Assembly (NCBI RefSeq): GCF_014305155.1
Contig: NZ_JACRUK010000001.1
Location: forward strand, 1 to 64,000
Length of the DNA: 64,000 bases
Source of the DNA: Flavobacterium muglaense
Lineage (GTDB): Bacteria; Bacteroidota; Bacteroidia; Flavobacteriales; Flavobacteriaceae
Reading direction: 5' to 3'
Part shown: piece after piece, positions 11,246-62,321 of the stretch
How positions within the stretch are numbered: the stretch's first letter is position 1
How the letters are laid out: each line of letters starts with the position of its first letter
Position numbers and translations under genes: made by a program
Notes under the pieces: generated by a model
Databases searched by the model: none
What the model was told of the DNA's origin: nothing
The model's input: the letters and a program-made list of their open reading frames with translations, nothing else

Positions 11246-12124
11246 TTACTCTTTTCTCAAAACGTCTTTGTAAAGTTCAATATTTGCTTTTACCTTTTCA
11301 TCTAGTTCCGGCTCTTTAATGTCCGTATGCTTTTGCATTTCTTCCCAAATAATTTTGGCCACAATGTAACGACACATATCTTTATCATCAGCAGGAACAA
11401 CATACCAAGGTGCATAATCCGTAGACGTTGCGTTTATCGCCTCCTCATAATACTTCATATAATCATCCCAACGCGCTCTTTCCTTCAAATCTCCTACAGA
11501 GAATTTCCAGTTGTGCTTTTCCTCTTCCAAGCGACGCAACAACCGTTCTCTTTGCTCCTCCTTGCTCAAATTGATAAAAAACTTCAGCACTATCGTTCCG
11601 TTTTGAGTAATGTGCTTCTCAAAATTCCTTATCTGCTCCATTCTATTCTCCCAAAACTCTGGCTTTATATCCTCCACCTGTTCAATTCCTGGGATATTTT
11701 CATTCATAATATATTCCGGATGAACACGTGTAACCAAAACATTTTCATAATGCGTACGGTTAAAAACCGCAAATTTCCCTTTTTCAGGCAGCGCAATATA
11801 ATGACGCCATAAATAATCATGCTCCAACTCCGTCGAGTTTGGCGTTTTAAAACTATGCACCACCACTCCACGAGAATTAAACTCCTTAAAAACTTCCCGA
11901 ATCAAACTGTCCTTCCCAGAGGTATCCACCCCTTGCAAACAAATCAAAACGCCATATTTATTATGAGCATACATCACATCTTGCAGCTCACTCAACTTCT
12001 CGCGCACGTTCTCTAATTTATCTTCTTTGGCATCCTCATCTGCCTTAACATGCAAGTTTGTAGCTAGTTCTGATAATTTTATCGCTTTTACAACTTTAAA
12101 ATCGTCTGGGTTTATTGATTTCAT
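11246..12124 (-). CDS. polyphosphate kinase 2 family protein
   Basis: 292 residues. The PPK2 P-loop GVDTSGKD (65-72) and the lid/Walker B region FNRTHYENVLVTRVHPE (121-137) are diagnostic, followed by FINLSKEEQRERLLRRLEE and KFSVGDLKERARWDDYM. PPK2 enzymes transfer phosphate between polyphosphate and nucleotides. The FNR rather than FDR motif resembles members that use AMP or ADP (class III-like), but the substrate range cannot be fixed from sequence. Cytosolic and transcribed alone. Confidence 0.9.
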   Translation of the reverse strand: MKSINPDDFKVVKAIKLSELATNLHVKADEDAKEDKLENVREKLSELQDVMYAHNKYGVLICLQGVDTSGKDSLIREVFKEFNSRGVVVHSFKTPNSTELEHDYLWRHYIALPEKGKFAVFNRTHYENVLVTRVHPEYIMNENIPGIEQVEDIKPEFWENRMEQIRNFEKHITQNGTIVLKFFINLSKEEQRERLLRRLEEEKHNWKFSVGDLKERARWDDYMKYYEEAINATSTDYAPWYVVPADDKDMCRYIVAKIIWEEMQKHTDIKEPELDEKVKANIELYKDVLRKE

Positions 12125-12189: not shown

Positions 12190-12277
12190 AGGAGCTATTT
12201 CCGGCTATTCGTTGCAATCTTTTTAGCTGCCAAAAAAAGCAGCTAAAAAGGATTTTCACTACTATCCGGGCTAGGGC
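12190..12277 (+). repeat. dispersed intergenic hairpin repeat, copy A
   Basis: The element reads AGGAGCTATTTCCGGCT, then TTGCAATC, a 12-bp perfect stem CTTTTTAGCTGC / GCAGCTAAAAAG (12219-12230 and 12239-12250) with an A-rich loop, and the closing box GGATTTTCACTACTATCC-GGGCTAGGGC. It shares both boxes with copies at 24734-24821 and 60719-60866, while the stem sequence differs. It lies between divergent genes and ends 22 bases before the ATG at 12300. Confidence 0.8.
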
Positions 12278-12299
12278 ATCCGTTTTTACAATAACAACA

Positions 12300-13136
12300 A
12301 TGGGCAATTTTACACTCGAATTACTATTCCACATCATCGGCATCGGTTCAGCATCAGGACTTTTATACAAAGACAACAACCTACTAATCATAGGCGATAA
12401 CAGTAGCTTTTTATACGAATACCATCTAGAATCCAAAACCTTAAACCAATATCCGCTACTAGCAAATCCTGCTGTAAACATTCCTAAAAGCGAGAAACCC
12501 GACTTTGAGTCCCTCACACAATTCCAAGACACCGTTTACGTTTTAGGATCAGGATCTACACCCAAACGAAATGCCATGATCGAATTTGATACCAATCAAA
12601 AAAAGAAAATAGCCACTAACAACCTAGCCGATTTGTATGCTGTAATGCAAAGTTTTGCAAGCATAAAACCCGAAGACTTCAATCTAGAAGGCGCCGTTTA
12701 CGATGGCGAAAACTGGTATTTATTCAACCGAGGCAATGGTGCTTCAAACCAAAACACCGTTTTTACCATTCATGCCAAAAAACTGAGTGAAGAATTCAGT
12801 TTAGTGTCTAATGACTACAAACTACCCAAAATAAAAGGCATTCGATCCAGTTTCACCGATGCCGTTCTAGTCAACAACAATCTTTATTTTTTATCCACTG
12901 TCGAAGACACTCCTTCCACTTATGCCGATGGAGCAATACTTGGCAGCTTCATAGGCTGCATCAACCTTGAAACTATGAAGGTCGATTTTACTAAAAAAAT
13001 CAGCTCAACTCAAAAATTTGAAGGCATCACAGTGTACAAAAACACAACTGACAGTATTGAATTCCTTCTTTGCGAAGACAAAGATACCGAAGAACTAAAA
13101 ACAGCTATTTATAAACTAACCTTAACAAAAAAATAA
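12300..13136 (+). CDS. DUF6929-like beta-propeller protein
   Basis: 278 residues. The start MGNFTLELLFHIIGIGSASG leads into blades such as LLYKDNNLLIIGDNSSFLYEY, FESLTQFQDTVYVLGSG and FEGITVYKNTTDSIEFLLCED, a repeating strand pattern typical of DUF6929-type beta-propellers. No signal peptide is evident. Function unknown. Its stop overlaps the next start by one base (TAATG), so the two genes are translationally coupled. Dispersed repeat copy A sits in the leader. Confidence 0.78.
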   Translation: MGNFTLELLFHIIGIGSASGLLYKDNNLLIIGDNSSFLYEYHLESKTLNQYPLLANPAVNIPKSEKPDFESLTQFQDTVYVLGSGSTPKRNAMIEFDTNQKKKIATNNLADLYAVMQSFASIKPEDFNLEGAVYDGENWYLFNRGNGASNQNTVFTIHAKKLSEEFSLVSNDYKLPKIKGIRSSFTDAVLVNNNLYFLSTVEDTPSTYADGAILGSFIGCINLETMKVDFTKKISSTQKFEGITVYKNTTDSIEFLLCEDKDTEELKTAIYKLTLTKK

Positions 13137-15342: not shown

Positions 15343-15392
15343 GTAGCAAAAGGCAAATTTAAAGGGTAATTTCAAAATAGCAAACGAAACCT

Positions 15393-15458
15393 TTTGTCTC
15401 GCTGAAAGCGTCTCAGCAAAGTTTCTCACCTGATGTGAGACGCTTTCAGCGAGACAAA
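15393..15458. repeat. 23-bp perfect inverted repeat
   Basis: TTTGTCTCGCTGAAAGCG and following bases (15393-15415) recur inverted at 15436-15458 without a mismatch, around a 20-base spacer. It lies in the 389-base gene-free stretch 15265-15653, after the SDR terminator, so it is unlikely to be that gene's terminator. Nothing else recognisable lies in this stretch apart from the promoter region of the sigma gene at its right end. Confidence 0.75.
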
Positions 15459-15653
15459 CTTTGGAGATTAGTTTTGAGGTTAAGTCAATAGTCAAACTCA
15501 AAAATCAATTTCAGGAACAAAACTTAAATGATGAATGCTTAACGCAAATCATCAATCGTTAACTGTTAATCAAAAATCATTAATTTATTTTTTTTTCACT
15601 CCCCTCCCAACCTTTTTGACTAAATTACTCTCTATACTAGTAAAGACACTATT

Positions 15654-23497: not shown

Positions 23498-24661
23498 TTA
23501 TTTTGACGCGAACAATTTCACATCATTTTCGGAAATCTCGCTTCCACCAAGGATTATTAAACGCTCCACTACATTTCGTAATTCGCGAATATTTCCCGTC
23601 CAATCATATTCTTGCAATAACTTCACGGCATCTTTAGAAAACTTTTTGACCGCTGTTCCTTGCTCTGTTGCTATTTTATTGGCAAAATGAGCAATCAACA
23701 TTGGGATATCATCGCGTCTATCATTTAATGAAGGTACTTTGATCAAAATCACTGCTAATCTATGGTACAAATCCTCGCGGAAACGCCCTTCGGCAATTTC
23801 TACTTTTAAATCTTTATTGGTTGCTGCTACTACTCGTACATCTACCTTTATATCCTTATCGGCACCTACTCTAGTGATCATGCTCTCTTGCAAAGCGCGC
23901 AACACTTTGGCTTGAGCCGAAAGACTCATATCTCCAATTTCATCCAAGAAAATAGTTCCTTTATCTGCAGCTTCAAATTTACCTGCGCGGTCTTTCACTG
24001 CCGAGGTAAATGCTCCTTTTACGTGACCAAAAAGTTCGCTTTCGATCAATTCACTTGGGATTGCAGCACAGTTTACCTCGATTAAAGGGAAATCGGCTCT
24101 ATCGCTTTTTTCATGTAATTGATGCGCTACTAATTCTTTTCCGGTTCCGTTAGGTCCTGTGATTAAAACTCTCGCTTCGGTTGGGGCTACTTTATCAATC
24201 ATCACTTTGATGTGATCAATTGCTTCGCTTTCGCCAATCATTTCGTAGTTCTTACTGACTTTTTTCTTTAAAATCTTGTTTTCAACTACGAGTTGTTTTT
24301 TGTCTAAGGCGTTTCGTACTGTGTTTAATAAACGGTTTAAATCTGGTGGTTTTGAAATATAATCAAAAGCGCCCAAACGCATTGTATTGATAGCTGTTTC
24401 CATATCACCGTGACCAGAGATCATGACCATTGGAATTTCGGGCTTTATTTTCTTTACTGCTTCTAGCAACTCTACACCATCCATCTTTGGCATTTTGATG
24501 TCGCATAAAACCAGATCGTAATCATTGTTTTTTATTTTTTCAAAACCTATGACACCATCCTCGGCATCTTCTACTTCATAGGTTTCACTTTCTTCTGATA
24601 GTATTTTTGTAAGTACTCTTCGAATTGCTGCTTCGTCTTCTATAATTAGTATTTTAGGCAT
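23498..24661 (-). CDS. NtrC-like response regulator (REC-AAA+) lacking an HTH domain
   Basis: 387 residues from MPKILIIEDEAAIRR; an upstream start at 24706 would add an unrelated Lys/Thr-rich leader. Receiver domain 1-120 has Asp54 as phosphoacceptor in LCDIKMP and Lys104. The AAA+ domain about 140-375 has Walker A GPNGTGKE (169-176), Walker B FLDEIGD (238-244), a sensor R and WTGNIRELRNV. The sigma-54-contacting GAFTGA loop reads GAFTSA (216-221). It stops at KLFASK, where a Fis-type HTH would normally begin. Sigma-54 activation without direct DNA binding is inferred. No sensor kinase is adjacent. Confidence 0.9.
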   Translation of the reverse strand: MPKILIIEDEAAIRRVLTKILSEESETYEVEDAEDGVIGFEKIKNNDYDLVLCDIKMPKMDGVELLEAVKKIKPEIPMVMISGHGDMETAINTMRLGAFDYISKPPDLNRLLNTVRNALDKKQLVVENKILKKKVSKNYEMIGESEAIDHIKVMIDKVAPTEARVLITGPNGTGKELVAHQLHEKSDRADFPLIEVNCAAIPSELIESELFGHVKGAFTSAVKDRAGKFEAADKGTIFLDEIGDMSLSAQAKVLRALQESMITRVGADKDIKVDVRVVAATNKDLKVEIAEGRFREDLYHRLAVILIKVPSLNDRRDDIPMLIAHFANKIATEQGTAVKKFSKDAVKLLQEYDWTGNIRELRNVVERLIILGGSEISENDVKLFASK

Positions 24662-24733
24662 ATTCTTTGTTTTTTTGTGGGTATTTGTAGGTTTTAATTT
24701 GTACAAATCGCCCTATTATTGCTACTCTATTTT

Positions 24734-24821
24734 TAACCCTGATTGCAGTGGAAATCCTTTTTTAAGACGCTTTTTTTTTGCGACTTAAAAAAGATTGTAG
24801 CGGAAAGCAGGAAATAGTTCC
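24734..24821 (-). repeat. dispersed intergenic hairpin repeat, copy B
   Basis: Read on the minus strand: GGAACTATTTCCTGCT, then CTACAATC, a 14-bp stem with one mismatch (plus-strand 24757-24770 and 24780-24793) and the closing box GGATTTCCACTGCAATCAGGG. It shares both boxes with copy A at 12190-12277, but the stem sequence differs while pairing is kept. It sits between two minus-strand genes. Confidence 0.8.
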
Positions 24822-24829
24822 AAATTATT

Positions 24830-26146
24830 TTAATACTTAAGCCATTTGTACAACTCTCTCCATGTTGGTTTTTTGCCGTACATTAATATTCCGACTCTAT
24901 AAATCTTAGCCGCAAACCAAACTACTGCAAAGAATGTGGCGAATAATAGTGTGACTGATATTGCGATTTGCCACAAAGGTACGCCAAACGGAATGCGCAT
25001 TAACATGACGATGGGCGATGTGAGCGGAATCATGGAGAAAACGACTGCGATTGTGCCATGTGGATCATTCATTACGCTAAAGAAACCCACGTAAACACTT
25101 AGCATTAATGGCATGATGATAGGTAGTAAAAATTGCTGTGAGTCGGTTTGATTGTCTACTGCTGCACCAATTGCTGCATAAAATGAACTGTATAGAAAAT
25201 ACCCTCCAATGAAATAAACGATAAAACCAAGGAGAATATTAGCAATGGGTAAATTCCATAATTCCTTGATATACGTTTGGGCTGTACTAGCAAATTCTTG
25301 CTGTGCTTGATGCATTAATTCGGGTGGCAATTTGGCAGTTGGTCCTACATTGACACCAAAAAATAGTGAAGCGGCAAACATTAACGAAAGTCCAATTACG
25401 GCCCAAATTACAAACTGTAAAATTCCCGCCAAGGAAGTTCCGATGATTTTACCAATCATTAACTGGAATGGTTTGACCGATGAAATGATGATTTCTATGA
25501 TGCGATTTGTTTTTTCTTCGATTACAGAACGCATGACCATATTGCCATAAATGATAATGAACATCATGATTAGGTACCCAAATCCACCACCAATAGCGAT
25601 TTTAATTTCGTTGAGTCCTTTCACGCTTTGCTCTCCTGAGGCTTTGGCCAATTTAATATTAACTACAGATTGTGCTTTTTTAATAGCCAAAGTATCCAGT
25701 TGCGCTTGTACTAGATTGATATTGGTGATTTTATTGCCTATGACATTTTGCACTTTTTCTATAAAAGAAATACTAGGACTGCTGTTTGATATAAATTGAA
25801 TATTGCTTTCAAAATCAGCACGATTGGTTGTTTTTGGAATAAGTAAAAGCCCTTCGTAGCCTTCGGATGTGATGCTGTCTTTTAATACTTGTGTATTGAC
25901 CAAAGTCAAATCGAGGTATTTATATTCGCCTTTTTTATTGTTTTCGGCAATGAAATCTTTGACAAACAAACCGGACTCGTCATGAATTGCGATTTGTTTT
26001 GTCTCTGCTTTCATCGAACTTAAATAACCTACAAATGCGGCGATCCCAACAAATAATAGCGGACTTAAAAAAGTCATTACAATAAAAGACTTATTGCGGA
26101 CTTTAGCAATAAACTCTCTTTTTATGATTAATGAAATGATGCTCAT
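24830..26146 (-). CDS. ABC-2 type transporter permease (NatB-like)
   Basis: 438 residues. One N-terminal TM (about 23-43) is followed by a large extracytoplasmic domain (50-185), then about five TM helices from 185 on. The region VMRSVIEEKTNRIIEIIISSVKPFQLMIGKIIG is the ABC-2 membrane-coupling signature. It follows its ATPase gene by 31 bases on the same strand. By analogy with NatAB it is an exporter of ions or small hydrophobic compounds; the substrate is unknown. Confidence 0.88.
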   Translation of the reverse strand: MSIISLIIKREFIAKVRNKSFIVMTFLSPLLFVGIAAFVGYLSSMKAETKQIAIHDESGLFVKDFIAENNKKGEYKYLDLTLVNTQVLKDSITSEGYEGLLLIPKTTNRADFESNIQFISNSSPSISFIEKVQNVIGNKITNINLVQAQLDTLAIKKAQSVVNIKLAKASGEQSVKGLNEIKIAIGGGFGYLIMMFIIIYGNMVMRSVIEEKTNRIIEIIISSVKPFQLMIGKIIGTSLAGILQFVIWAVIGLSLMFAASLFFGVNVGPTAKLPPELMHQAQQEFASTAQTYIKELWNLPIANILLGFIVYFIGGYFLYSSFYAAIGAAVDNQTDSQQFLLPIIMPLMLSVYVGFFSVMNDPHGTIAVVFSMIPLTSPIVMLMRIPFGVPLWQIAISVTLLFATFFAVVWFAAKIYRVGILMYGKKPTWRELYKWLKY

Positions 26147-54279: not shown

Positions 54280-55728
54280 ATGAAAAACACAGCTTTGTAC
54301 CAAAAAGAAGTCTCATCTCAAGTAGAAAGACGACGTGCGGGAGTCAAATTAATTAAAATCGTTAGTGATCTATGGTATGACAAATCCATCGAAATGGTTT
54401 TATTTAAAAATCAATTATTAGACAAAAATGTAAGTGACATTATCAACTTACATCAATATGCAGCTGAATTTGTAGGGAAGCCTATTAGTATTTTTGCTTC
54501 GGTAGAAATTGCCAAAGTAGTTTTGTCATTAGACTTACCACCGTCAAAATTAGACATTGGTAAATTGACTTTCGAATATTTATCGGAAGAAGACAAACAC
54601 GAAGACGCAAGACATTTTGTACTTGATCGCTTGAAGCATGCTAAAAGTTCAGAAGAGATTCAACCAAAAGATGTTGTTTTATATGGTTTTGGAAGAATTG
54701 GTCGTTTATTAGCGCGAGAACTAATGTCTAAAACAGGAAAAGGAAACCAATTGCGGTTGAGAGCTATTGTAACTAGAGACAAAAATGACGCATCAAGCCT
54801 TGAAAAAAGAGCTTCGTTATTACGTTATGACTCAATTCATGGTGATTTTCAAGGATCAGTTACTGCTGATGTAGAGAATAATGCCTTAATTATCAATGGA
54901 ACTACCGTACATATTATTACAGCGAACACTCCTGAAGAAATTGATTATACTGCTTACGACATTGACAATGCTTTAATCATAGACAATACTGGTGCTTTTA
55001 CAACTGAAGAAGCACTAAGCAGGCATTTAGTTTCTAAAGGTGCTCATAAAGTACTATTGACAGCTCCTGGAAAAGGAGTACCTAATATTGTACATGGTGT
55101 GAACCAAAACGAGTACAATCCAGACGAAATCAATATTTTCTCGGCAGCTTCTTGTACTACTAATGCAATTACACCAATCCTAAAAGCGGTTGAAGACACT
55201 TTGGGCGTTGTAAAAGGACATTTAGAAACGATTCATTCGTACACAAACGACCAAAACCTGGTTGATAATATGCACAAAAAATACCGTCGTGGTAGAGCAG
55301 CGGCTTTAAACATGGTAATTACTGAAACTGGCGCAGGAACGGCAGTTGCCAAAGCATTACCATCTCTTGCTGGAAAATTAACTTCAAATGCAATACGTGT
55401 ACCTGTCCCTAACGGCTCATTGGTAGTATTAAACCTTGAAGTTGAAAAAGAAACTTCAATACAAGAAATCAATTCAATTATGAAAAGATACGCTCTTGAA
55501 GGAGAACTAGTCGAACAAATCAAATATTCTGTAAACAACGAGTTGGTTTCTTCGGATATAGTAGGTACATCAGCGCCTTCGATCTATGACAGTAATGCCA
55601 CTATTGTGTCAAACGACGGAAAAAACATCGTATTATACATTTGGTACGACAATGAATATGGTTACAGCCACCAAGTAATACGCTTGGCCAAATATATTGC
55701 TAAAGTAAGACGTTTTACGTACTACTAG
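54280..55728 (+). CDS. glyceraldehyde-3-phosphate dehydrogenase with N-terminal extension
   Basis: 482 residues. Standard GAPDH starts at about residue 131 with VVLYGFGRIGRLLAREL (136-142 is GFGRIGR), then SAASCTTNAITP with catalytic Cys292, and HSYTNDQNLVDNMHKKYRRGRAAALNM. Residues 1-130 are an alpha-helical extension not found in classical GAPDH; it occurs in some Bacteroidota and proteobacteria. A GapA- or Gap2-type direction of reaction cannot be told from sequence. TATTTTTG at 54225-54232 is a possible -7 element. Confidence 0.93.
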   Translation: MKNTALYQKEVSSQVERRRAGVKLIKIVSDLWYDKSIEMVLFKNQLLDKNVSDIINLHQYAAEFVGKPISIFASVEIAKVVLSLDLPPSKLDIGKLTFEYLSEEDKHEDARHFVLDRLKHAKSSEEIQPKDVVLYGFGRIGRLLARELMSKTGKGNQLRLRAIVTRDKNDASSLEKRASLLRYDSIHGDFQGSVTADVENNALIINGTTVHIITANTPEEIDYTAYDIDNALIIDNTGAFTTEEALSRHLVSKGAHKVLLTAPGKGVPNIVHGVNQNEYNPDEINIFSAASCTTNAITPILKAVEDTLGVVKGHLETIHSYTNDQNLVDNMHKKYRRGRAAALNMVITETGAGTAVAKALPSLAGKLTSNAIRVPVPNGSLVVLNLEVEKETSIQEINSIMKRYALEGELVEQIKYSVNNELVSSDIVGTSAPSIYDSNATIVSNDGKNIVLYIWYDNEYGYSHQVIRLAKYIAKVRRFTYY

Positions 55729-60284: not shown

Positions 60285-60635
60285 ATGGGACCAGAAGTAT
60301 TTATCATTTTCATCATTTTCGGAGCTATCTTCGGAGTATTCTATTTATTTTTTTCGACTCGTAACAGAGAGCGCTTAGCGTTAATTGAAAAAGGAGTTGA
60401 CGCCAGTGTTTTTATGTCTAAGAGACCCAAACACACCTCTTCGTTATGGAAAGCTTTTCTATTGAATCTAGCCGTTGTTTTAATGGGAGTAGGTGCAGGG
60501 ATATTAATCGCATTAATGATACAGAACATTTTTGGGATTACAGACAACGCCTTATTCCCTGGAATAATCTTTTTAACAGCTGGTACAGGCTTACTAGTTG
60601 GATTTAAAATAACCAAAGATTTAGATGATAAATAA
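60285..60635 (+). CDS. DUF6249-like membrane protein
   Basis: 116 residues. Three hydrophobic helices (about 5-22, 55-78, 85-107). The motif FFSTRNRERLALIEKGVDASVF after the first helix is typical of DUF6249. Divergent from the ECF sigma gene with a matching promoter, suggesting common control. Function unknown; an envelope-stress role is inference from context. Confidence 0.82.
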   Translation: MGPEVFIIFIIFGAIFGVFYLFFSTRNRERLALIEKGVDASVFMSKRPKHTSSLWKAFLLNLAVVLMGVGAGILIALMIQNIFGITDNALFPGIIFLTAGTGLLVGFKITKDLDDK

Positions 60636-60690: not shown

Positions 60691-60718
60691 ACTCGAAAAA
60701 GTCATAGAGCACAATAAA

Positions 60719-60866
60719 GCCCTAGCCCTGATGGTAGTGAAATACTTATGAAATTAATTTTTACTTTTTCTTGACCTAAAAGAGCGACTAAAAGAAGCTC
60801 CTTTTGGGGCATTAGAAAAATAAAATTAATGAAATAAGGATGCAACGACAGCAGGAAATAGCTCCT
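60719..60866 (-). repeat. dispersed intergenic hairpin repeat, copy C (enlarged)
   Basis: On the minus strand AGGAGCTATTTCCTGCT, then GTTGCATCC, a long imperfect stem (plus-strand 60745-60770 with 60815-60838), a 44-base internal region with its own small hairpin (about 60778-60805), and the closing box TATTTCACTACCATCAGGGC, TAGGGC. Both boxes match copies A and B; the insert between them is about 60 bases longer. It lies between convergent genes. Confidence 0.72.
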
Positions 60867-60929: not shown

Positions 60930-62321
60930 TTACAACACGCGGTTGATTTGAGTAACTCTTTTAGTATAATATTTTTCTTTGAGTGATGAAATAATAACCC
61001 CAGTTGACGAAGCATGAATGAATTTTATATCGCCATCATTTACTTCTACCACCATACCTACGTGGTTTATTTGTCGTCTCCCATTGGTTTTAAAGAAAAT
61101 CAAATCTCCTTTTTGAGCATCTTCATTATTGATTTTTGTACCATAATGAGATTGCTCTATTGAAGTACGAGGCAGGTCGATATCAAAAGCTCCAAATGTA
61201 GTGCACATCAAGCCCGAACAGTCAAAACCATCTTTAGTAGTACCACCTGAACGGTATCGTGTCCCTATGTTTTCTGACGCTGTAGACACTAGTTGATCTA
61301 GAAAATCAGTACCATGAAATCCTTTTACATTGTAATTTGATGTATTAGTATCTATAGCTACTGCTTCTGGCACAATAACAGGCTCAACAATTTTAATATT
61401 ACTGATAGATAATTTAAAGCCTATTGGCAAATTATTTACGATACTTGGATTTTGTCTTTCCAGCTCTTTAACTGATATTCCGTACTCTCTTGCGATTCCG
61501 TATTTAGTTTCTTTTGGCAACACTTCGCGCGTTACTGTGGTAGTCTCGGCAAGTTTTTCATCTGGAACTACTGGCTTCAAAGTTTCTAAAACTACAGGTT
61601 TTACACTAGTAGCTTCAACTACCGCTACAGTGCCTTTATTTTCTTCTGCTTTTACTGGAATCAATATTTTTTGTCCAATTTTTAATCCTTCGGTTTCTAA
61701 AATTGGATTTGCTTTATCTAAATCTGCAACTGTAATACCATATTCTTTTGCAATTGCATACTTGGTCTCTGTGGCTTGTATTTCACGAACAACCATATCC
61801 GAAGCAGCAACAGGAGTATCATCCGCTGCCACAGTCGACTTTTTATCAATAGTTTTCGAGGTCTCTTTTTCCGTTTTCTTTTCTGCGACTTGCGCTGTAC
61901 CTGCATTAAATTCGTTACCTGGAATAGTTATTTTTTGACCTTTTCTTAAACCTGATTTTTCTAGTGTAGGATTACTTTGGTACAATTCTTTTACCGTCAG
62001 ACCATATTGTTTTGCAATACCGTAAATGGTTTCTTTGGGAAGAACAGCATGTGTTTTTTCGGGAAAGTTGGTTGGTTTTTCTGTTGATGTAATTTTAGTT
62101 TTTTCGCTTGTTGACGGAATCAATAAAACAGATTTAAATTTAATTCCCTTCTTAGCATCTGGGTTTAGTGCGTAAATAGCTGATGATTTCACCTTGTATT
62201 GTTCTGCAATTTTAGTAATTGTTTCTCCCTTACCAACAGTATGCTTTGTATAGTTTTCTTGTGAAAAAGAACTGAAACCTGCCAACATTACCATTCCTAA
62301 AATCAAACTACTAAACTTCAT
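60930..62321 (-). CDS. LysM-domain NlpC/P60 endopeptidase
   Basis: 463 residues. Signal peptide about 1-20. Four LysM repeats follow (about 24-70, 92-136, 180-225 and 265-310), with the pattern KETIYGIAKQYGLTVKELYQSNP. A low-complexity Thr/Glu/Val linker and then the C40 (NlpC/P60) domain occupy about 335-463, with catalytic Cys in DGFDCSGLM, His in NHVGMV and the polar HASS. It cleaves peptide stems in peptidoglycan. Secreted or periplasmic. Transcribed alone. Confidence 0.93.
   Translation of the reverse strand: MKFSSLILGMVMLAGFSSFSQENYTKHTVGKGETITKIAEQYKVKSSAIYALNPDAKKGIKFKSVLLIPSTSEKTKITSTEKPTNFPEKTHAVLPKETIYGIAKQYGLTVKELYQSNPTLEKSGLRKGQKITIPGNEFNAGTAQVAEKKTEKETSKTIDKKSTVAADDTPVAASDMVVREIQATETKYAIAKEYGITVADLDKANPILETEGLKIGQKILIPVKAEENKGTVAVVEATSVKPVVLETLKPVVPDEKLAETTTVTREVLPKETKYGIAREYGISVKELERQNPSIVNNLPIGFKLSISNIKIVEPVIVPEAVAIDTNTSNYNVKGFHGTDFLDQLVSTASENIGTRYRSGGTTKDGFDCSGLMCTTFGAFDIDLPRTSIEQSHYGTKINNEDAQKGDLIFFKTNGRRQINHVGMVVEVNDGDIKFIHASSTGVIISSLKEKYYTKRVTQINRVL

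Follow-up and report, generated by a model that had tools for sequence, protein, structure and literature searches.

Three intergenic elements in the window, the 64,000-nucleotide stretch of Flavobacterium muglaense DNA analysed here (contig NZ_JACRUK010000001.1, positions 1 to 64,000), were traced with cmscan to the Rfam family RF01705 (Flavo-1). Copies A and B belong to this family and copy C is a near-member below the threshold. Flavo-1 sites are inherited between species, and the base changes found at one of them show that the lower stem of the element is selected for its fold. Tentatively, and with slightly less than even confidence, we favour the reading that Flavo-1 is an old interspersed element which acts as a folded single strand and does so more likely as DNA than as a dedicated RNA gene. 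A shape that is under selection yet unlike an ordinary RNA gene would change how the function of Flavo-1 should be sought.

Flavo-1 copies in the window

The gathering score of RF01705, 42 bits, was used as the cut-off for membership. The parts of the three copies and their neighbours (assigned by Pfam) are as follows.

12191-12278, - strand: copy A, whole element, Flavo-1 class I (cmscan 81.3 bits to RF01705 at 12194-12276, - strand; model R1 88.8 bits)
12250-12273, - strand: copy A, 5' arm of the lower stem, TAGCCCGGATAGTAGTGAAAATCC on the - strand
12220-12249, - strand: copy A, upper stem and loop
12201-12219, - strand: copy A, 3' arm of the lower stem
12191-12200, - strand: copy A, conserved tail, AAATAGCTCC on the - strand
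11246-12124, - strand: PPK2 gene, neighbour of copy A
12300-13136, + strand: DUF6929 gene, neighbour of copy A
24729-24821, + strand: copy B, Flavo-1 class I (cmscan 78.6 bits to RF01705 at 24731-24818, + strand; R1 77.9 bits)
24734-24757, + strand: copy B, 5' arm of the lower stem
24758-24792, + strand: copy B, upper stem and loop
24793-24811, + strand: copy B, 3' arm of the lower stem
24812-24821, + strand: copy B, conserved tail
23498-24706 and 24830-26146, both - strand: sigma-54 type response regulator and ABC-2 permease, the tandem genes between which copy B lies antisense
60718-60865, + strand: copy C, long form, class III (cmscan 36.3 bits, E 0.00049, at 60720-60862, + strand, under the gathering score of 42; R1 47.3 bits)
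60778-60805, + strand: copy C, apical module AAAAGAGCGACTAAAAGAAGCTCCTTTT, common to other long forms
60285-60635, + strand, and 60930-62321, - strand: DUF6249 and LysM/NlpC genes, the convergent neighbours of copy C

The initial annotation had placed three copies at these positions, and all of them were found there. The conserved boxes it described correspond to the lower stem's two arms, those of copy A having been read opposite to the strand of the Rfam model. The list of open reading frames also bears out its divergent, tandem and convergent settings for copies A, B and C, respectively. Elsewhere in the window a long near-perfect inverted repeat occupies an intergenic gap at 15380-15465; in Rfam it matches nothing but a human-type microRNA model, below the threshold and surely spuriously.

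The Flavo-1 family itself is already catalogued. It was tabulated for the Bacteroidetes in 2010 as 'y n n' (PMC2864571), a table entry which we read as likely RNA and not gene control, and the type given to it in Rfam is sRNA gene. The passage on Flavo-1 in the F. psychrophilum transcriptome study of 2021 reports that several 5' transcribed regions overlap Flavo-1 matches, that the matches are sense or antisense indistinctly with no sense bias, that many lie outside any transcribed region, and that the comparison with transcripts yielded no real clue on function (PMC9723704). Our literature search on Flavo-1 and RF01705 found no function assignment. The element had initially been described as a flavobacterial intergenic repeat without assigned function, which agrees with these entries.

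Copies A and B have the same fold and the same conserved letters as the Rfam family. What is new here is how the sites behave and that extended architectures exist. The Rfam model is one hairpin of 76 positions, whereas two further forms were observed in this analysis, one probably with a three-way junction and one that is longer and bears an apical module. The fixed sites, the random orientation and the scarcity of G-U pairs likewise go beyond the Rfam description.

Anatomy and extended forms

On the Flavo-1 strand 30 copies follow the outline TAGCCCxGATy-GnA-Gq-GnA-AATC-C-(upper stem)-GATT-GnA-q'C-GnA-y'AGCx'GG-AAATAGCTCC, with type swaps at the pairs x-x' and y-y' and in the Gq helix. The lower stem is interrupted by one A-G mismatch, one bulged C and two 3x3 internal loops GNA/GNA, which could hold sheared G-A pairs. 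A shorter variant carries GGCATCC and GATATAG. TTCTTTA is the most frequent upper loop (52 of 145 copies), and among 31 tetraloops there was no GNRA and no UNCG. In REPs a GTAG-type tag stands beside the hairpin; many Flavo-1 copies have GTAG or GCAG within the 5' arm, placed in the lower stem and its loop and not at an end.

Other ends, GCGTGAG-GGATy...y'AGCC-CGACC-hairpin-CACGCCCAA, were seen in 12 of the 50 matches in 455 kb of the own genome. Of 38 pattern matches to this form, 22 contain the reverse complement of the outer five bases with CC directly after it; the 38 include chance matches, at least one of them among the 22. When the outer 5-mers were dealt among the copies 300 times, the mean was 3.4 and the maximum 8. 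This complementarity points to a three-way junction of the outer helix, the Flavo-1 hairpin and a third hairpin in the other-ended form.

The long form of about 150 nt accounts for 4 of the 50 matches, copy C among them, and has a conserved apical module close to AGAGCGACCnAAGGAAGCTCCT which is present also in six orthologues at site A, the site of copy A. Short and long forms substitute for each other between species at site A and are therefore versions of one thing.

Most of 144 copies from the own genome and relatives have an A-rich stretch after the GCTCC tail. An extra hairpin ending TCAGTGAACTTCGTT was noticed at the same Flavo-1 internal loop in L083:1164, at site A of G029, at site B of G007 and near 55503 in stretch B of G135; two G135 copies carry GCGAACTGACGAAGTAAA also within the 3' tail. 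The recurrence of the TCAGTGAACTTCGTT hairpin at loci and in species that are unrelated would be explained by targeted insertion or by copying from one paralogue to another.

Copy number and range

The own genome (4.15 Mb, 117 contigs) holds at least 117 Flavo-1 matches at E <= 0.001 and at least 109 over the cut-off. These are lower bounds, since 150 of 1096 candidates were scored; copy C is absent from that list. The possibility that the genome has no further copies, considered in the initial annotation, is thus set aside by numbers far beyond chance.

With 65 candidates scored per genome, a match was found in 35 of 37 Flavobacterium genomes (the own genome included) and in 5 of 23 genomes from other families of the order. 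The genus members G018 and G020 had no match among their 65 candidates. Copy number varies widely among species. A pattern scan of named genomes gave, among the matches listed (80 of at least 119), Flavobacterium including F. psychrophilum, Chryseobacterium, Halpernia and Epilithonimonas, and also a number of metagenome bins, including one that bears the label Sphingobacterium.

Viral contigs gave 0 matches to an exact Flavo-1 pattern that recovers only part of the known copies (19 of 30, 11 of 50, 7 of 25 and 49 of 99 rows of four overlapping copy alignments). A blastn search of plasmids and phages with one typed Flavo-1 consensus also returned 0 matches, the flavobacterial share of these collections being uncontrolled. 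Where Flavo-1 is absent or near-absent, no replacement repeat was detected in G018 and G020 (100 kb each), G033 (60 kb) or G024 (58.5 kb); this test is weak because the word method missed all five real Flavo-1 copies in the G004 control.

Inheritance at fixed sites

The neighbourhood of site A was located by one or both flanks (67-77% identity) in 24 of the 25 relatives sought. Flavo-1 is present in 22 of these 24 species, always in one orientation, and two of the 22 copies are partial or rebuilt: G125 retains 57 nt, and in G029 the 5' arm is replaced. The site is empty of Flavo-1 in the other two located species, G139 and G076. Site B carries Flavo-1 in 11 of 25 relatives, a weak 18.8-bit match on the opposite strand in G029 being left out, and a third site on own contig C26 carries it in 11 of 20 species, one copy being partial. 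Gain and loss at site B require 7 changes on a one-gene tree and are not clearly clustered (70 of 500 shuffles were as low).

Two species that are about 91% identical were compared over four collinear stretches. Leaving out one 19-bit match, 13 of the 14 copies of the first species and 13 of the 16 copies of the second are common to both. Opposite the single unshared copy of the first lies a rebuilt form that the model no longer detects, and at each of the three unshared copies of the second at least one flank is unalignable. Ten of the top 15 copies of one species have their partner within the top 15 of the other. Further orthologue pairs predicted from synteny were confirmed in ten of ten cases, two of them at sites A and B. 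These results show that Flavo-1 sites are inherited.

Selection on the folded lower stem

In the 30 copies from the own genome 93.7% of the cells are paired, and two-sided changes occur in 15 of 22 pairs. The copies contain 99 two-sided cells compared with 27.6 ± 3.8 after shuffling, a value of 99 being reached in 0 of 500 shuffles, and changes on one side only were found in 9 cells. The pair swap reported initially, CCGG with CCGG in copy A and CCTG with CAGG in copies B and C, was read correctly; in the 30 copies this pair is U-A 13 times, C-G 9 times, A-U 7 times and G-C once. A failure of the central stems to pair had been considered as well, and the stems of most copies do pair.

The covariation set for site A comprised 21 of 23 copies (own included), the two rebuilt copies being left out. 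Among these orthologues 96.8% of the lower-stem cells are paired and 46 are two-sided, compared with 13.0 ± 3.7 in shuffled sets (0 of 500), and x-x' alone takes all four Watson-Crick types at this site. The number of pairs with a two-sided change (7; 54 of 500 shuffles) and the number of further pair types (14; 188 of 500) are not above the shuffles. Judged from these base changes, the fold of the lower stem is evidently under selection at this one locus.

Identity between orthologues at four sites, determined with 15 of 23, 8 of 12, 10 of 12 and 4 of 4 copies, amounts to 0.80-0.94 for lower stems, 0.44-0.66 for upper stems and 0.61-0.70 for flanks; random AT-rich 60-mers give 0.61. The simple register of the upper stem is misaligned in some copies, and its identities were used while its pairing counts were set aside. 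Thus, orthologues retain the lower stem, whereas their upper stem is exchanged. In 32 orthologue pairs of the two close species the elements are 0.917 and the flanks 0.888 identical; paired positions underwent 66 one-sided changes (42 broken) and 14 two-sided changes (10 still pairing). The constraint over this short span is modest.

Strand, orientation and promoter motifs

The upper stems of 134 parsed copies out of 167 contain G-T or T-G 19 times and A-C or C-A twice. In the lower-stem columns, one misaligned column left out, the corresponding numbers are 33 and 14. Since decay of a duplex would give equal numbers of both mismatches, it is the named strand that folds, in single-stranded form. 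Among the standard pairs of the upper stems 19 of 1412 (1.3%) are G-U, compared with 32 of 323 (9.9%) in 15 tRNAs of the same genomes; at one lower-stem position G-U accounts for 16 of 162 (10%).

Orientation to genes is random. For the 46 of 50 copies that were placed, those between tandem genes are 13 sense and 15 antisense, and the density per kb of gap is 0.81 for tandem, 0.64 for divergent and 0.69 for convergent genes. An earlier gene set distributed 40 copies as 10, 14, 8 and 8 over the orientation classes. Along the chromosomes of the one-contig genomes G036 (81 copies) and G010 (59 copies) no strand pattern was found (p 0.21 and 0.55), and the spacing was close to random without significant clustering. 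A replication-strand or spacing rule was rejected for these two genomes.

The flavobacterial promoter motif is TAnnTTTG. Motifs leading into the element are not clearly enriched, neither in 42 own copies (7 compared with 5.2 on the 5' side, 6 with 4.5 on the 3' side) nor in 30 copies of 29 other species (2 with 4.0 and 7 with 3.7, respectively). Counting orthologues more than once gave 26 inward-reading motifs on the 3' side, compared with 15.7 ± 3.8 in shuffled sequences. Reading away on the 3' side, the motif accompanies 11 of the 42 own copies (3.7 shuffled) and 9 of the 30 copies from the 29 other species (2.4 shuffled), and outward-reading motifs are about twice as common on the 3' as on the 5' side. 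This enrichment is suggestive only. At site A the stretch separating the element from the PPK2 gene contains a TAnnTTTG-type motif.

These data bear on the possibility that Flavo-1 works as RNA, either as a small RNA or as a processing or protein-binding hairpin in transcripts crossing the gap, a reading which the Rfam type implies and which we consider somewhat unlikely. The strong covariation speaks for it, G-U is tolerated above A-C, and the possible sheared G-A loops, the three-way junction and the apical module are as in structured RNAs; moreover, the F. psychrophilum study mentions some 5' transcribed regions that overlap matches (PMC9723704). It is opposed by the random orientation to genes, the lack of a clear promoter motif leading in, the scarcity of G-U in upper stems and the absence of thermostable tetraloops, and the same passage describes many matches as untranscribed and finds no sense bias (PMC9723704). 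Taken together, the orientation, promoter and G-U results speak against a dedicated RNA gene; RNA from read-through remains compatible with them. If Flavo-1 is RNA, the fixed sites, site A above all, indicate which copies to test.

Replacement of the upper stem

The upper stem is exchanged wholesale between orthologues. Such swaps may partly stem from hairpin-templated mutation, and the case for selection is therefore made mainly on the lower stem. Selection on folding, as proposed in the initial annotation, thus holds for the lower stem, where the site-A orthologues bear it out, and is more weakly supported for the upper stem, which is swapped as a whole.

Templated mutation might even account for the pairing altogether: Flavo-1 would have no function, and template switching would copy arm onto arm and mimic compensation. 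Several observations agree with this, namely the replacement of whole stems between orthologues, two-sided transversions in L117/L126, where the flanks are 98% identical, a loop inverted between the orthologues L122 and L116, the near absence of G-U intermediates in upper stems and the modest constraint between close species. However, arm copying would erase purine mismatches, and the G-A loops and the A-G mismatch persist beside swapping pairs. It also leaves unexplained that the lower stem is kept where the flanks are at or near random. We regard a purely mutational origin of the pairing as improbable.

Mobility

The initial annotation had proposed a search for an associated transposase or RAYT gene, and no link of Flavo-1 to REP-type (Y1) transposases was found at the loci examined. 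The own genome has four Y1 transposase matches, all set among unrelated hairpins. Of the 63 Y1 loci listed for 40 genomes 32 were examined, and the only trace of Flavo-1 at them is a single match of 16.9 bits. In addition, five genomes that carry copies (G004, G011, G012, G016 and G037) are without a Y1 match. Mobilisation by Y1/RAYT is not supported by these two results, which cover the Y1 family among the transposases. A literature search on RAYT in Flavobacterium gave nothing relevant among the matches listed. Some paralogues, for example L001 and L003, are nearly identical and have unrelated flanks; dispersal has therefore happened. No clean empty site, as needed for recognizing a target duplication, was present in the collinear stretches of the two close species.

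A miniature transposon (MITE or REP) that is still spread by a transposase, its fixed sites being merely old insertions, would account for the dispersed, intergenic and randomly oriented copies, for paralogues such as L001 and L003 and for the widely different copy numbers, but it is improbable in view of the unassociated Y1 genes at the loci examined, the Y1-free genomes with copies and the missing empty site, and drift of old insertions would not hold the lower stem at 0.80-0.94 identity.

Proposed mode of action

In the preferred reading, a folded single strand more likely to be DNA than a dedicated RNA gene, Flavo-1 would be an old intergenic interspersed family passed on vertically at fixed sites. 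Its lower stem is selected for folding in single-stranded form, always on the same strand of the element, and the upper stem forms a cap whose pairing is kept and whose sequence and length are free. We infer that the element may be a docking site at which a putative host factor reads the folded lower stem. It would act mainly at the DNA level, as a hairpin in transiently single-stranded or supercoiled DNA. Dispersal would be mostly old, and copies would now be kept, lost or refurbished in place. As regards DNA as the working form, the tolerance of G-T agrees equally with RNA and with single-stranded DNA. Besides the RNA-like loops, junction and apical module and the lower-stem position with 10% G-U, the modest constraint over the short span, the two genomes of the genus without a match and the promoter motifs reading in from the 3' side (26 compared with 15.7) count against the preferred reading.

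The most specific version of this reading takes Flavo-1 as structured DNA, that is, as chromosome-wide recognition sites in folded single strands which are selected at fixed positions, with a basal stem read by a factor and an interchangeable cap. We consider this version rather unlikely. If it were correct, covariation would have led to Flavo-1 being filed as RNA, and a chromosomal process of the Bacteroidota, be it repair, recombination, packaging or self-recognition, would use dozens to more than 100 sites per genome. Should Flavo-1 act as DNA in any form, covariation alone could mislabel structured DNA as RNA, and an unknown chromosomal process in a major phylum would be indicated.

Comparison with other repeat systems

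In the attC sites of integrons a conserved basal part is recognized in folded, single-stranded form; these sites also have one base left unpaired and a terminal structure that is free to vary. Flavo-1 might work like attC, a resemblance in mode of action only. Unlike attC, Flavo-1 is not significantly clustered in the two genomes and shows no excess of insertions beside its copies: synteny breakpoints or large indels were found in 11 of 29 gaps with a copy compared with 50 of 158 gaps without one. These gaps give no support to integron-like insertion beside Flavo-1. The ERIC or IRU elements of enterobacteria are about 100 nt long, intergenic, palindromic and present in many copies, with no settled function. 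They appear to resemble Flavo-1 in habit only; they belong to another phylum and presumably differ in sequence.

In the REP/RAYT system, as outlined in PMC3733652, the REPs of 20-40 bp share with Flavo-1 that they are dispersed intergenic hairpins, strand-specific and with mismatches. Flavo-1 differs from REPs as characterized there in being two to four times longer, in having no RAYT at its side at the loci examined and in occurring in genomes without a Y1 match. The RAYTs of the own genome carry hairpins other than Flavo-1.

The Y1 (RAYT-like) genes at C25:44717-45061 (L031) and C53:28077-28421 (L032) are flanked by many copies of the palindrome TATAAATATGTAGCTCCTACGGAGCT, which seems to be a REP family belonging to these genes and to have no relation to Flavo-1. 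At C43:1344-3770 (L033, L034) a further Y1 gene is present as two near-copies that look interrupted, amid GGGAGACTTCGCACAGC hairpin repeats. On own contig C26 (L064, 14338-15050) a tandem repeat of about 134 bp, made of TTGTCAGTTCGAGCGGAGTCGAGA-type palindromes, adjoins a Flavo-1 copy.
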